Assembly: GCF_002257665.1 (NCBI RefSeq)
Contig: NZ_MQWB01000001.1
Location: 494,502 to 558,501, forward strand
Length of the DNA stretch: 64,000 bases
Direction: 5' to 3'
Source: Rubricoccus marinus
Lineage (GTDB): Bacteria; Bacteroidota; Rhodothermia; Rhodothermales; Rubricoccaceae
The position numbers and the translations under genes are program-made. Numbering within the stretch: position 1 is the stretch's first letter; each line of letters opens with the position of its first letter. Under the pieces are notes generated by a model. The model did no database searches. It was not told the origin of the DNA and saw only the letters and a program-made list of their open reading frames with translations. Positions 13,832 to 20,558 of this stretch are shown in pieces.

Positions 13832-15193
13832 TCAGGCCGCCAGAGGCTCGACGCACTCGGCCTGTCCCGTCGGCTCGGGGAGATACCGCCAGACGACCCA
13901 CGCCAGGACGACGACCGTCGCGGCGGAGGCGAACGTGACGGACCGGAAGCCCCACGCGCCGTACAGCGCGCCGGCCATGATGCCGCCCACGCCGGTCCCG
14001 ATCTGCCCGACGGCGATCACGAGCGACATCAGCGTTCCCCTCTGGCGCCCGGGCACTAGCGCCGTGAGGAGCGCCTGGAGCGGGCTGGCGCGGAGCGCGA
14101 AAAACCCCATGATGGCGATGTAGATCGGGTACAGCGCCCACCGCGCCTCGCCGACCACGTAGGTGAGCCCGAGCGTGACGAGGCCCAGGCCGATGCACGA
14201 GACGAGGATCATCGGTTTGCGCCCCGTCCGATCCGAGAGGCCGCCCGCCCACGGGCCGATCAAAACGCTCGCGAGGCCGCCGACCGAAAACAGCGTCGCG
14301 ATAAAGTCGATGGGCAGTCCGAACACCGCCAGAGGCTCGCCGAACAGCGTGACGCCGAGCGGCTGCGTCGCGGAGATCCAGATCGGGAGGTAGGCGATCA
14401 GGAGACCCAGCCCGAGGTACATCAGGAAGTACGTGACCGCTGCCGCCCGGTTGTCGCCGGAGCGCAAGAGGCTGGCATAGCCCGCGAGAAAGGCCGGGAG
14501 GTCCAGGCGGCTCTCGTCCAGCTTCACCTTCGGCTGCGGGACCACAGCGAGGACGAGCACGCACGTGAGCGCCATCAGCGCCGCGAAGATGATGAACGGG
14601 ACACGGAAGCCCAACCCGGCCGCCAAGACCCGTCCGATCGGCACGCCGAAAACGAGCCCGACCGGGACGCCGCTCATGACGACGCCTGTGGCCCAGCCGC
14701 GTCGCGAGTACGGGACCGCGTCGCCCACGTAGCTCACCGCCGCGCCCGAGAGCATCCCGCCGCAGGCGCCTGCAAGCACCCGCGCGCCCATCAACCCCAC
14801 GAACGAGCCGACCAACCCGTGCAGCAGCAGCGCGCCCGCCAGCGCGCCCGATCCGATGAGGAGCACGCGCCGCCGTCCGATCCGGTCCGAGACGGGGCCC
14901 ATCACGAGTGCCGCCGCCGCGAGCGCCCACGAATAGGCGGGGATCAGCCACCCCAGGAGCGCATCCGATACGCGCAGCGCCTCGCCGATCACCGGCAGGA
15001 TGGGCGTGATGATGATGGTCTGGCTGGCCGCCGTGAACACCAGCAGCCACAGCGCGCCCAGCGTAGCAGCCGCCCGCGATGCCGATCCCAGTCCCAGGCC
15101 CGAGAGGCCTCTGGCGGAGTCGCCGCTCGGAGCGGACGCGCCAGAGGCGGAGGGAGAAGAGGGGTCGTCGGAATCGTTTGGTGCAACAGGCAT
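13832..15193 (-). CDS. MFS transporter, 12-helix
   Basis: A 453-aa MFS protein with a 35-residue Ser/Pro/Ala-rich cytosolic N-terminus, then about 12 helices. Family motif A appears as GPVSDRIGRRRVLLIG and again in the second half as GGLSDRTGRKPMILV. The ATG at 15193 is the best start; upstream residues in the open frame are Arg/Pro-rich and not protein-like. Substrate cannot be inferred. It is divergent from the TonB receptor and shares its promoter region, including the direct-repeat array at 15351-15416. Confidence 0.88.
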   Translation of the reverse strand: MPVAPNDSDDPSSPSASGASAPSGDSARGLSGLGLGSASRAAATLGALWLLVFTAASQTIIITPILPVIGEALRVSDALLGWLIPAYSWALAAAALVMGPVSDRIGRRRVLLIGSGALAGALLLHGLVGSFVGLMGARVLAGACGGMLSGAAVSYVGDAVPYSRRGWATGVVMSGVPVGLVFGVPIGRVLAAGLGFRVPFIIFAALMALTCVLVLAVVPQPKVKLDESRLDLPAFLAGYASLLRSGDNRAAAVTYFLMYLGLGLLIAYLPIWISATQPLGVTLFGEPLAVFGLPIDFIATLFSVGGLASVLIGPWAGGLSDRTGRKPMILVSCIGLGLVTLGLTYVVGEARWALYPIYIAIMGFFALRASPLQALLTALVPGRQRGTLMSLVIAVGQIGTGVGGIMAGALYGAWGFRSVTFASAATVVVLAWVVWRYLPEPTGQAECVEPLAA

Positions 15194-15500
15194 CGGCGGT
15201 GGACGCAGAGGCGGTCGGAAAGGTCCGGGGGAATCTCGCGCCCGGGGCGAGACGGGTGGGGCCCGTGGGGCGAGGATATGCCCACGCCAGAGGCCCAAGG
15301 GCGCTCGTGAAGGGGCCGAGAAGTGCGGCCTGCGTTCCGGAGAGGCCGTCGGTAACGCTGGCGTGATAGACCGGTAACGCCCTGGTAATGGGCGGGTAAC
15401 CGGGTCGTAACAGGGCCGGGGTAGTGTGCTCGCGGACGGGCACCGCAGCTGATTCCCACTCCTGCGGCGCCGCTTTTCGCGCTCTCCCACACCCCCTCTC
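15194..15500. other. Divergent regulatory region between MFS and TonB-receptor genes
   Basis: About 307 bp without genes. It holds one motif copy near 15290, the 11-bp-period direct-repeat array (15351-15416), and a GC-rich leader before the receptor. I see no clear sigma-70-type hexamers. Confidence 0.6.
15351..15416 (+). promoter_or_regulatory. Array of six 11-bp direct repeats (GGTAAC core), putative activator site
   Basis: The hexamer GGTAAC or a one-base variant begins at 15351, 15373, 15384 (GGTAAT), 15395 and 15406 (CGTAAC). The missing register at 15362 holds a degenerate CGTGAT, making six contiguous 11-bp units. One-helical-turn tandem repeats are the binding pattern of PhoB/OmpR-type response regulators (the Pho box of several phyla has an 11-bp period). 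The array ends about 85 bp before the TonB-receptor ATG, a position suited to activation. The regulator and signal are inferred, not shown. Confidence 0.7.
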
Positions 15501-18500
15501 ATGCGCCTTTTCGTCACCTCTTGTTTGCTGGCCGTCGCCCTCTTCGGAGCCTCTGGCGCGAGCGCACAGGCCACCGGCATCCTCAATGGAACGGTCGTCG
15601 ACGCCGAGTCCGGCGAGACCCTGATCGGCGCCAACATCTACGTCCCCTCCATTGAGCGCGGCGCGGCGACTGACCTCGACGGCAACTACCGGATCACTGG
15701 GCTCCCCGCTGGCTCCTACGATGTGCAGTACTCCTTCGCCGGTCTGGTGGACCAGACGGTCACGGGCGTCGAGATCGTCGCGGGGCAGACGACGACGATC
15801 AACGTCCAGCTCACGTCCGACGAACTGGAGACGGTGACCGTCACGGCCGCCGCCATTATCGAGACGAACAGCGAAGTCGGCCTCTTGCGGCTGCGCGCCC
15901 GCGCGGCGCAGGTCTCGGACGCGATCTCGGCCGAGGCCATCTCGCAGAGCGGCTCCAGCGACGCCAGCGACGCGATGGAGCGCGTGACCGGCGCGAGCGT
16001 CCAGGGCGGCAAGTACGTCTTCGTGCGCGGGCTCGGCGACCGCTACGCCAACACGCAGCTCAACGGCGCCACGCTCCCGACCGCCGACCCCGACCGCCGG
16101 GCGGTCCAGTTCGACCTCTTCCCGAGCGAGTTCCTGGAAAACATCATCACGCTCAAGACCTTTACCCCGGACAAGCCCGGCAGCTTTTCCGGCGGTCTCG
16201 TGGACATCAACACGCGCTCGTTCCCCGAGCAGATGACGGCCTCGCTCTCGGTCTCGACCGGCGCCTCCACGCTGGTCACGCCCGGCGGGGACATCCTCGT
16301 GGACCCCGCGACAAGCGTCTCGTACGTCGGCACGGCCAGTGACTTCGAGATCCCGTCTGAGCTCCTGGGAGAGGCGGACCTGCCGGTCCTCTCGCGCCAG
16401 ATCCGCTTCAACCCCGAGGCCGACCCCGAGATGCTCGCGGCGGTCCAGTTGAATGAGCGGCTCGTCGACGCCTTCGGCGCGCGCAGCGTGGCGCCAGAGG
16501 CCGGCACGGCGGCGCCGAACGTCAGCGCCTCTGGCGCCTTCGGCAACCGCTTCAGCGTTCTCGGAAACGACCTCGGCTTTATCGTCAGCGGCACGTTCGA
16601 CCGCGGCGTCTCGTCCTACGACGAGGGCATCGTGGGACGCTACGGGACGGCCGGCGAGAACGAGAGCGGCCAGCAGCTCCCGCAGCTCCGCCAGAGGCGC
16701 AACGACCAGCGCACGACGCTGGCGTCCAACCTCGGCGGCATCGCGAACGCGGCGTACCGCATCGGGCAGTTCAACGAGGTGTCGCTGAACACGCTGTTCT
16801 CGCGCAACGCTGAGAGCGAGGCACGCCTCATCTCTGGCCCGGCGCCGTTCCCCATCGGCGGGACCGGCGACCCGATCACGGTCACGGACCGCGTCGTGGG
16901 CCACGCCGAGCGGCAGCTGGCCTCCGCATCGCTCCGCGGGCGCCACGAGCTTCCCCGCGCGGCGGGCGTGGGCGTAGAGTGGCGCGCGAGCTACGCCGAG
17001 ACCCAACTCGACGAGCCCGACCTGCGCTTCTTTGCCAACGCGAACCTGAGCGGGGCCTCTGGCGGCAACGACTTGGTCGTGGGCGGCGCGTCACTGAACA
17101 ACACGCTGCACTTTTTCCGCGAGTCGACCGAGACTCTCGGGGGTCTGGGCCTGGACCTCACGGTCCCCGAGCGCGCGCTTGGCGGGTTGGCGACGATCAA
17201 GGTCGGCGGGCTCTACGAGACCACCGCCCGCGACTTCCGCGAGCGCCGTTTCGAGATCCTCTCTGAGGGCCTTCAACTGAACGGCGAGGACGCCGAGTCC
17301 GTCAACGCCTTCTTCAGTGAAGCCAACTCCGGCGTGTTGGAGGTGCTCCCTGCCAACCCGCGCGATCCGCAGCAGCGCCAGACCTACCTGCTCGGCAACA
17401 TCTTCCGCGACGGCACGCAGGACAACAACCAGTACGACGGCGGTCTGGACGTGGCCGCGGGCTACGCGATGGCGGAGTTCTCGCTCATCGACCGCCTCCG
17501 CGTCATCGCCGGCGCGCGCTACGAGCGGACCGACCTCTCCATCGACGTCGTCAACCGCATCACGGGCGATGCCGTGGCGCCAGAGGACCCGGACTTCAGC
17601 AACCAGATCGCGGAGAACGACATCCTGCCGTCGCTCAACGTCGTTTACGCGCTGACGGACAACATGAACGTCCGCACGGCGGCCACGCGCACGCTCGCGC
17701 GGCCCACGTTCCGCGAGATCGCACCGTTCTGCGCCTTTGACTTCGGCACCGACGGCGAGCTGTGCGGCAACCCGGAGCTCAACCGGACGCTGATCTCCAA
17801 CCTCGACCTCCGCTGGGAGTGGTTCAACACGCCGGGCTCGCTTCTGGCGGCCAGCGTCTACTACAAGGACCTCCAGAGCCCCATCGAGCGCGTCATCATC
17901 GACAACGACAACGGGCTCCAGGAATTCCAGAACGTCAGCGACGCGACGATCCTGGGCGCGGAGTTCGAGGCGCGCCAGAGGCTGGAGACGTTCGGGCTCA
18001 CCGGGCCCGTCCTCCGCAACCTCTCGCTCGGCGGCAACCTGACGGTCACGCGCTCCGAGATCACCATTGGCGAGACCGAGCTGGCCGAGCGCCGCACGGT
18101 CAACCCCGATGCCGCGGACACGCGCCCACTCCAGGGGCAGAGCCCGTTCCTCGTCAACGTGGACCTGTCCTACGACAACCCCACGAGCGACACGCGCGCC
18201 GGCCTCTTCTTCAACGTGTTCGGCCGCCGCCTCTCGCGGGTCGGCATCCCGGACGTGTACGAAAACCCGAGCCCGCAGCTGGACTTCGTGGCGAGCCAGC
18301 GCCTGCTGGATCAGATCTCGGTCAAGCTCTCGGTCAAGAACATCCTCAACGCCAACGCCGAGGAGGTCTACGACTTCCCGGAGTCCACGTACAGCGCCAT
18401 CGGGGGGCTCACGCCCTTCTACCTCCAGCGCGAGCGCGGCACCTCGTTCTCGCTGGGCATCAGCTTCAGCCCCGCCTTCGGCGGCGGATCTCCCGCTGTT

Positions 18501-18539
18501 CCCCCGGCGCCGTCCGCCTCGGGCGTCGGGCGCCTCTAG
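15501..18539 (+). CDS. TonB-dependent outer-membrane receptor
   Basis: A 1012-aa outer-membrane transporter. Signal peptide 1-23 (ending GASAQ), carboxypeptidase-regulatory-like beta-sandwich (about 26-112: GTVVDAESGETLIGANIYV...DLDGNYRITGLPAGSY), a TonB-box-like LETVTVTA, plug domain (SDAMERVTGASVQGGKYVFVRG through GGLVDINTRSF), then the barrel. The C-terminus carries an unusual Pro/Ala/Ser tail instead of ending on the last barrel strand. Paired with the T9SS-exported protein that follows in the same direction; the direct-repeat array upstream suggests nutrient-limitation control. The substrate is unknown. Confidence 0.93.
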   Translation: MRLFVTSCLLAVALFGASGASAQATGILNGTVVDAESGETLIGANIYVPSIERGAATDLDGNYRITGLPAGSYDVQYSFAGLVDQTVTGVEIVAGQTTTINVQLTSDELETVTVTAAAIIETNSEVGLLRLRARAAQVSDAISAEAISQSGSSDASDAMERVTGASVQGGKYVFVRGLGDRYANTQLNGATLPTADPDRRAVQFDLFPSEFLENIITLKTFTPDKPGSFSGGLVDINTRSFPEQMTASLSVSTGASTLVTPGGDILVDPATSVSYVGTASDFEIPSELLGEADLPVLSRQIRFNPEADPEMLAAVQLNERLVDAFGARSVAPEAGTAAPNVSASGAFGNRFSVLGNDLGFIVSGTFDRGVSSYDEGIVGRYGTAGENESGQQLPQLRQRRNDQRTTLASNLGGIANAAYRIGQFNEVSLNTLFSRNAESEARLISGPAPFPIGGTGDPITVTDRVVGHAERQLASASLRGRHELPRAAGVGVEWRASYAETQLDEPDLRFFANANLSGASGGNDLVVGGASLNNTLHFFRESTETLGGLGLDLTVPERALGGLATIKVGGLYETTARDFRERRFEILSEGLQLNGEDAESVNAFFSEANSGVLEVLPANPRDPQQRQTYLLGNIFRDGTQDNNQYDGGLDVAAGYAMAEFSLIDRLRVIAGARYERTDLSIDVVNRITGDAVAPEDPDFSNQIAENDILPSLNVVYALTDNMNVRTAATRTLARPTFREIAPFCAFDFGTDGELCGNPELNRTLISNLDLRWEWFNTPGSLLAASVYYKDLQSPIERVIIDNDNGLQEFQNVSDATILGAEFEARQRLETFGLTGPVLRNLSLGGNLTVTRSEITIGETELAERRTVNPDAADTRPLQGQSPFLVNVDLSYDNPTSDTRAGLFFNVFGRRLSRVGIPDVYENPSPQLDFVASQRLLDQISVKLSVKNILNANAEEVYDFPESTYSAIGGLTPFYLQRERGTSFSLGISFSPAFGGGSPAVPPAPSASGVGRL

Positions 18540-18662: not shown

Positions 18663-20414
18663 ATGCGATCTCTCGCTACTCTCACCGCAGCCGCTCTCGC
18701 ACTGCTCCTCTCCGGCACCGCGTTCGCGCAGTCGACCACCCAGACGCTTTCCGGCGTCCTCACCGGCACCACCACCCTTAGCGCGAACGAGGTCTACCTC
18801 ATCGACGGCGAGGTGTACGTGGACAACGGCGCGACGCTGAACATCCCAGCGGGCACCGTCCTCAAAGGAAAGCAGAACCCGACGACGGGCAACGGGCAGT
18901 CCAGCGTGCTCGTCGTCCAGCGCGGCGGCACCCTCAACGCCAGAGGCACAGCCGCGGCGCCGATCATCTTCACCGCCGAGGGCGACGACGTCACGGACCC
19001 CTTCGACACCAACGAGACGCAGCGCGGCCTCTGGGGCGGCGTGATCATTCTCGGCAACGCGACCAACAACCGCGGCGTGCGTCAGGTGGAGGGCATCCCG
19101 TCCACGGACCGCTCCAAGTACGGCTGCGGCGATGCGGGCTTCGACTGCGACGAGGACGACGACTCGGGCGAGATGACCTACGTCTCCATCCGCCACGCGG
19201 GCTTCACGCTCACGCCGAACGCGGAGATCAACGGCCTCACGCTCGGCTCGGTCGGCCGCGGCACCCTGCTGGAGCACATCGAGGTGTTCGCCAACTCGGA
19301 TGACTCCTTCGAGTTCTTCGGCGGAACGGTCAACGCGAAGTACCTCGTGGCCTCCTTCAGCGGCGACGACGACATCGACTGGGACCAGGGCTACACCGGC
19401 AAGCTGCAATTCGTCTTCTCCCTCAAGGACGAGAGCGGCGACGTGGGCCGCTGCATCGAAGGCGACGGCGCCGCCAGCCCGTTCACCGCGGCGCTCCTCT
19501 CCGATCCCGTCGTGAGCAACCTCACCTGCGTCGGCTCCGGCGTGGGCTCCACACCGGGCGGCTCGGACGCCGGCGGCCCCACGCTCAAGCTGCGCGAGAA
19601 CACCCGCGGCGCGATCTACAACTCCGTCTTTACCGCCGTGCAATCCAGCGCGGGCGGGATCGACCTGGAAGTGCAGCCGGAGGACGACAACGGCAACCCC
19701 GTCGGTGACGCCACGATCTCAACGGCGCAGAACTTCCGCGAGGGCGAGCTGACCATCGCGAACAACATCTTCTTCGACTTCAGCGTCGGCAACGACGCCG
19801 CGAGCATCGTCCGGCGCGACGAGGCAGACATCGAGGCGACCATCGCGGCCGCCAACCAGTTCGTCACACCCGGCCTCGTCAACGTCGCCGATGGCTCTGG
19901 AGCCGCCGACGATGCCCGCGACCAAGACGGCGTGCTGGACCCCCGCCCGGGCTTCGGAAGCGCCGCGGCCTCTGGCGCGGACTTCACCCTCGCGCGCCTC
20001 TCCGGCGACAACTTCTTCACGCCTGTCAGCTTTAAGGGAGCCTTCCCCGCCACCAACCAGGGCCTCTTCTGGGCCGCGGGCTGGACCGCGCTGGACGACA
20101 TGCTCTACTTCAGCGCCAACGTGACCGTGGACGCCGAGGAGGCGCCAGAGGCCGCCGCGTCCGCGCTCCGCGCCTTCCCGAACCCCGCCTCTGGCGTGGC
20201 GACGGTCGCCCTCACGCTCGCAACGGCTCAGGAAGTGCAGTTGACCGTCGTGGACATGCTCGGCCGCGAGGTCGCCGTGCTCGCCTCTGGCGAGACCGCC
20301 GCAGGCGAGACGCGCTTCGCGCTCCCCGTCGCGGACCTCCAGGCGGGCACCTACCTCGTCCGCCTCGCGACGGAGGGTGCGGTGAGCACGCAGATGCTCA
20401 CGGTCGTCCGCTAG
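18663..20414 (+). CDS. T9SS-sorted secreted protein partner of the TonB receptor
   Basis: A 583-aa exported protein: signal peptide 1-22 (ending GTAFAQ), a right-handed beta-helix-like body with GTVLKGKQNP, GVIILGNA and repeated 'I/V-x-N-N-I/V-F' rungs, and Asp-rich loops (DCDEDDDSGE). The C-terminal 85 residues form a T9SS type A sorting domain (FPNPASGVATVALTL...VDMLGREVAVL...GTYLVRL). It lies 124 bp after the TonB receptor and ends in a terminator, so the two probably form one unit in which the secreted protein helps capture the receptor's substrate. Such pairs are common in marine Bacteroidota; the ligand is not determined. Confidence 0.88.
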   Translation: MRSLATLTAAALALLLSGTAFAQSTTQTLSGVLTGTTTLSANEVYLIDGEVYVDNGATLNIPAGTVLKGKQNPTTGNGQSSVLVVQRGGTLNARGTAAAPIIFTAEGDDVTDPFDTNETQRGLWGGVIILGNATNNRGVRQVEGIPSTDRSKYGCGDAGFDCDEDDDSGEMTYVSIRHAGFTLTPNAEINGLTLGSVGRGTLLEHIEVFANSDDSFEFFGGTVNAKYLVASFSGDDDIDWDQGYTGKLQFVFSLKDESGDVGRCIEGDGAASPFTAALLSDPVVSNLTCVGSGVGSTPGGSDAGGPTLKLRENTRGAIYNSVFTAVQSSAGGIDLEVQPEDDNGNPVGDATISTAQNFREGELTIANNIFFDFSVGNDAASIVRRDEADIEATIAAANQFVTPGLVNVADGSGAADDARDQDGVLDPRPGFGSAAASGADFTLARLSGDNFFTPVSFKGAFPATNQGLFWAAGWTALDDMLYFSANVTVDAEEAPEAAASALRAFPNPASGVATVALTLATAQEVQLTVVDMLGREVAVLASGETAAGETRFALPVADLQAGTYLVRLATEGAVSTQMLTVVR

Positions 20415-20517: not shown

Positions 20518-20558
20518 CGCGCCGGTCCCTGTGGGAGGGGACCGGCGCGGTTTTGTTT
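20518..20558 (+). terminator. Rho-independent terminator after T9SS gene
   Basis: Perfect 12-bp GC-rich stem (CGCGCCGGTCCC / GGGACCGGCGCG, 8-nt loop) followed by TTTTGTTT. This is a textbook terminator for the receptor/T9SS unit. Confidence 0.92.

Follow-up and report, generated by a model that had tools for sequence, protein, structure and literature searches.

What controls the TonB-dependent receptor gene encoded at 15501–18539 of the 64-kb stretch of Rubricoccus marinus DNA analysed here (the window), and which signal is answered, are the questions raised by a series of short direct repeats lying upstream of it. We read these repeats as a Pho box, that is, the operator of the phosphate-starvation regulator PhoB, driving the receptor gene and the gene that follows it, and we put the probability of this reading at about 0.92. 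The features discussed below are as follows.

13832..15193, minus strand: gene for an MFS transporter, divergent from the receptor gene and conserved in synteny; no Pho box was seen facing it on reading the intergenic region
15351..15416, plus strand: putative Pho-box operator of six 11-bp direct repeats, read directly and specific to period 11
15351..15372, plus strand: upstream extension made up of a good box at 15351 and a degenerate one at 15362, outside the four-box register of the orthologs
15373..15411, plus strand: four boxes standing in the register that orthologs share, defined by the ortholog profile (G)NTAAY N6 x4
15422..15429, plus strand: -10-like element TAGTGTGC, of the Bacteroidota TAnnTTTG type, 10 nt past the last box
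15501..18539, plus strand: TonB-dependent receptor of 1012 aa (CarboxypepD_reg, Plug and beta-barrel by Pfam), with full-length orthologs throughout the order and beyond
18663..20414, plus strand: secreted right-handed beta-helix protein of 583 aa with a T9SS C-terminal sorting domain (Por_Secre_tail; fold from AlphaFold2), an FII/ElpS-like partner
20518..20549, plus strand: terminator-like hairpin of 13 pairs with a T-rich tail, possibly closing the two-gene unit (consensus only)

The repeat array and the intergenic region

Direct reading bears out the six 11-bp repeats in exact phase, with a degenerate copy at 15362, that a first-pass annotation had reported. The units are GGTAACGCTGG (15351), CGTGATAGACC (15362), GGTAACGCCCT (15373), GGTAATGGGCG (15384), GGTAACCGGGT (15395) and CGTAACAGGGC (15406). 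GGTAAC occurs exactly at 15351, 15373 and 15395, with GGTAAT at 15384, CGTAAC at 15406 and a poor copy at 15362. Two features were absent from that annotation: the -10-like element TAGTGTGC, and the fact that the register common to orthologs comprises the last four boxes only, with cores at 15374–15378 (GTAAC), 15385–15389 (GTAAT), 15396–15400 (GTAAC) and 15407–15411 (GTAAC). TAnnTTTG is the -10 type of Bacteroidota, and from the position of the element transcription would start near 15436.

When three phased boxes had to agree with GTAAC at 12 or more of their 15 positions, the array was the sole place found in the window at period 11, and the same threshold returned no three-box GTAAC-like match in the 64 kb at periods 9, 10, 12 or 13. 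Tandem Repeats Finder did not report the array, because the 5–6 nt between the boxes vary. The last repeat ends about 10 bp before the -10 and occupies the place of a -35/-33 element; a sigma-70 promoter of the E. coli type was not found, and this candidate was rejected. An RNA element or riboswitch was ruled out, since 15200–15520 had no match in Rfam.

The divergent MFS gene had been proposed, with some reserve, as a further target of the array. The synteny itself is conserved: an MFS gene neighbours the receptor gene, usually divergently, at L166, L167, L168, L182, L187, L189, L200, L205 and L215, and in rearranged order at L175 and L202. Retention of the neighbour across several families, even where gene order has changed, would suit a bidirectional operator governing both genes, but we consider this unlikely: Pho boxes are directional, and neither a box nor a -10 directed towards the MFS gene was seen in the 307-bp intergenic region, so control through a reverse box was rejected. 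The conserved neighbourhood nonetheless suggests a functional link of the transporter to the phosphate system.

A separate feature of the window is the decamer GCCTCTGGCG, which was counted 200 times over the two strands of the 64 kb, where dinucleotide shuffles predict 0.67. Its sites (for instance 15107, 15139, 15285 and 15549) are spread over the whole window, within and between genes, and often form opposed pairs that share 2 bases (1577/1585, 4148/4156). The decamer is a highly iterated sequence of the HIP1-like kind.

Conservation, further sites and the candidate regulator

Upstream regions of receptor orthologs, read in the correct orientation, carry 11-bp-phased (N)TAAY boxes in nearly all cases and a TAnnTTTG-like element 10 nt past the last box in most. 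In the order-wide set, 25 of 29 orthologs reached p<0.01 against dinucleotide shuffles that were scored by the same best-placement search as the real sequences. A grid of period against gap over the orthologs peaked once only, with a mean score of 21.3 where the period is 11 and the gap 10; no other gap scored above 19.3 and no other period above 15.1. Arrays persist upstream of the receptor in Ignavibacteria, Melioribacter, KSB1, Calditrichota and Balneola, and over all named loci the mean score is 14.8 at period 11 versus at most 12.8 at other periods; conservation fades in Saprospiraceae, Verrucomicrobia and Myxococcota.

Sites of this kind are also found before genes of phosphate starvation, namely those of the pst, phoB, pit and lipid-remodelling types. 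A scan of 60 relatives for three KTAAY boxes gave matches at receptors, at porin-pstS loci (L048 and L059, where PstS was located by a separate family search) and at a DUF47-Pit operon (L060). The pattern of array plus -10, with at most one mismatch, matched 68 times in the relatives versus 28 times in a reversed control, whose matches were concentrated mostly in a few genomes. The exact matches number 26, with 16 at receptor promoters, five at phosphate-type genes and five unassigned. The phosphate-type sites precede phoB (G009, where this gene directly follows the receptor and partner genes), plcP-like genes (G019 and G055), a DUF3419/BtaA-like gene (G052) and porin-pstS (G026). One-mismatch sites precede further plcP-like genes (L168, L174); two more, before genes of TetR-like (L165) and amino-acid-permease-like (L180) type, are counted as unassigned. 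The plcP-like label denotes domain, gene neighbour and size, the best NCBIfam matches being weak ones to LpxH, with no curated model. PlcP, Agt and BtaA make up a phosphorus-sparing set of lipid remodelling (PMC4796936). In many relatives no clear array was seen within 1.5 kb upstream of pstS.

Two other observations come from these genomes. In two genera the composite Pho promoter precedes the gene of a 100-aa protein that matches nothing in Pfam (L166:12529–12828 and L167:14967–15254). The gene lies near the receptor cluster, and its product is a possible member of the Pho regulon. Two exact arrays with a -10-like element, conserved at L043 (G054) and L045 (G033), have no long ORF just downstream in the expected orientation.

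The 4.43-Mb genome of R. marinus itself was scanned by patterns. The pattern (GGTAAY N5)x3 with up to three mismatches matched eight times, four of these being the window array, and its reversed control not at all. The targets found by motif scans in this genome are the receptor, phoB, a plcP-like gene and phoU, and the three-box matches at the last two were not chosen post hoc. The phoU gene has three boxes, starting 54 bp before the gene start, with no -10 in phase. The plcP-like gene, which is followed by one for a glycosyltransferase, is preceded by GTAAC/GTCAC/GCTAT/GTCAT, 10 nt and GAAGTTTG. Upstream of phoB (L130) stands CTAAC-N6-GTAAC-N11-TACTTTGG, that is, two boxes with a gap of 11. 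We regard the phoU and phoB sites as weak. A pattern of two boxes plus -10 had three matches genome-wide and none in its control: the receptor, phoB (C1:3948219, minus strand) and C11:23916. Both this pattern and the one applied to the plcP-like site were designed after the plcP and phoB sites had been seen, and therefore show rarity and not independent discovery. The C11:23916 match lies in an A+T-richer stretch without a clear gene and is probably due to chance; another match (L006), inside a purine nucleoside phosphorylase-like ORF, was also judged chance.

The usual Pho targets could not be checked in R. marinus, because its genome, 97.7% complete, gave no match to PstS or PHO4/Pit; the two families were dropped as control targets. 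This genome does contain a locus encoding PhoU and a Na/Pi cotransporter (C1:1177637–1179556; L042:11637–13556), at which no array was found.

The conserved geometry, the phosphate genes among the targets and a gene pair like Fjoh_0545/0546 (see below) support the Pho-box reading. The arrays at orthologous receptors and the further arrays before phosphate genes, in this genome and in relatives, are those on which the first-pass annotation had made its proposal of a PhoB-type operator for phosphate uptake depend, and as far as sequence comparison goes they speak for it.

The genome has genes for a PhoB/PhoR pair. The PhoB candidate (L130:7487–8194, minus strand) is the best scorer for TIGR02154 (E 8.6e-72), below the curated cut-off, and is adjoined by a PhoR/PnpS-like kinase (L130:6290–7435, minus strand); none of the PhoB and PhoR models reached its curated cut-off in this genome. 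Another two-component pair (L129) was at first read as PhoBR; the L130 pair fits better. The choice bears on whether a different regulator of the OmpR/PhoB family, answering some other envelope or nutrient signal, might bind the array and the phosphate link be incidental. The genome encodes seven Trans_reg_C proteins, 11-bp direct repeats are a general geometry of the family, and it is the L129 response regulator that tops the Bacteroidetes PhoB model. Yet the L130 regulator is the closer of the two to the receptor-adjacent PhoB of G009 (51% vs 43% identity) and has boxes in its own promoter, and the composite promoter stands in relatives before phoB, porin-pstS, Pit, plcP-like and btaA-like genes, which are united only by phosphate stress; such a regulator is improbable. 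Short degenerate repeats are common and Tandem Repeats Finder is silent here, but the chance that the array is a neutral repeat without regulatory role is negligible in view of the shuffles, the period and gap grid, and a conservation that is period-specific, keeps register with the -10 over receptor identities of about 40–55% and extends to other classes and phyla.

With PhoB as the most probable binding protein, the following course may be envisaged. On phosphate limitation PhoR would phosphorylate PhoB, which would bind head-to-tail on four (up to six) of the 11-bp repeats with their (N)TAAY core. Bound PhoB would substitute for the -33 element, and RNA polymerase would be recruited to the TAnnTTTG-type -10 (15422), 10 bp downstream of the boxes. 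This would switch on the two-gene unit of TonB-dependent receptor and T9SS-exported beta-helix protein, which together probably serve to capture phosphate or organophosphate at the outer membrane and to import it.

The gene pair and comparable systems

The gene for the beta-helix protein adjoins that of the receptor almost everywhere among the named loci, which span many phyla, and the two appear to form one unit, perhaps ended by the hairpin at 20518–20549. This hairpin is rated as consensus only, because the four terminator-like sites found in the region are near chance (2.9 expected). The AlphaFold2 model of the partner (mean pLDDT 80) is a right-handed beta-helix; in VIA-align it matched tailspikes, PL6 lyases, pectate lyases and polygalacturonases with Z values reaching 22, and Foldseek gave weak matches only. 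Sharing this modelled fold does not indicate a function.

A phoB-like, pstS-like or plcP-like gene lies within 10 kb at about one third of the named loci. Loci with such phosphate-type neighbours come from KSB1, Zixibacteria, Latescibacteria, Calditrichota, Ignavibacteria, Saprospiraceae and a Flavobacteriales genome; phoB-like genes within this distance of the receptor occur in KSB1, Zixibacteria, Latescibacteria, Calditrichota and the one Flavobacteriales genome, where a partner homolog stands beside phoBR (L238). Anchoring of the partner seems to be of two kinds: in the window protein a plain signal peptide is combined with a T9SS tail, whereas the homologs at L187, L238, L242 and L247 have lipoprotein-type N-termini and no tail.

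Two known systems resemble the pair. In Flavobacterium johnsoniae, Fjoh_0545/0546 (TBDT and FII, PUSIV) share the PF07715, PF13715 and PF14905 domains, a pectin-lyase-fold neighbour and membership of the phosphate-starvation regulon (PMC8115612); these two genes belong to the phoBR operon and are strongly upregulated when Pi is depleted (8.02 and 9.91 in the FC column), and FII is reported to be homologous to ElpS (PMC8115612). Unlike the window protein with its T9SS sorting domain, FII is called a lipoprotein, and the window pair lies away from phoBR; the likeness is one of domains and architecture. In Caulobacter crescentus, CC0171 is likewise a TonB receptor adjoining a surface protein, ElpS, made on phosphate starvation (PMC2996285), but ElpS, a lipoprotein, requires a T2SS for its release, and CC0171 was reported to be constitutive by RT-PCR. 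The window receptor has the domains of this class (PF13715/PF13620, PF07715 and PF14905) and an adjacent exported, pectin-lyase-like right-handed beta-helix protein; lipoprotein anchoring is what its partner does not share. We surmise that the window pair works like the ElpS/FII-TBDT pairs without being a strict member of them.

Pho boxes in general are built of 11-nt direct repeats, with a consensus that depends on the species (PMC4415409), and the E. coli box stands 10 bp ahead of a TAN3T -10 (PMC1906773). The type of array seen here shares with the latter the tandem 11-nt direct repeats, the last of them 10 bp before the -10, and a place before pst and phoB genes (PMC4415409, PMC1906773); it differs in having an (N)TAAY and not a CTGTCAT core, four to six units and not two, and a TAnnTTTG -10. 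Since the consensus varies by species (PMC4415409), the mismatch to CTGTCAT excludes the E. coli sequence subtype only. In cyanobacteria, SphR boxes (CTTAACCT) consist of no fewer than three 8+3 bp repeats with a TTAAC core (PMC1906773), though they belong to another phylum and promoter class; here the cores are often GTAAC, in high-GC genomes. Within the Bacteroidota, PhoB of Bacteroides fragilis binds the pst promoter (PMC3547664), and the DAP-seq motif of Riemerella anatipestifer PhoP, TTTAACA, is of the TTAAC type and found before a TonB receptor among others (PMC9603813). In the parts of the latter study available to us the motif is tied to virulence and likened to ArcA, with no phased array at a fixed -10 spacing described (PMC9603813).

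Meaning for phosphate acquisition

The first-pass annotation had called the box sequence undescribed for this phylum. In the literature searched we found no description of a Pho box in Rhodothermia, and to that extent it was right; TTAAC-type boxes as such are known from SphR (PMC1906773) and Riemerella PhoP (PMC9603813). The array is best described as a Pho box with a known type of core, (N)TAAY, for which the comparative support is unusually strong.

We tentatively suggest, at somewhat less than even odds, that one code ((N)TAAY, 11 bp, TAnnTTTG 10 bp downstream) is ancestral to Rhodothermia, Ignavibacteria, KSB1, Calditrichota and Balneolota, and that in lineages which, like this one, lack detectable PstS or Pit the Pho-controlled receptor and beta-helix protein are the main energised outer-membrane step for phosphate or organophosphate, feeding a Na/Pi symporter.

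For a group in which none was found described, a usable definition of Pho box and promoter is now at hand, and the Pho regulon of Rhodothermia and their relatives becomes predictable from sequence. With it, a very widespread and uncharacterised pair of TonB receptor and beta-helix protein is linked to phosphate acquisition and membrane-lipid remodelling.
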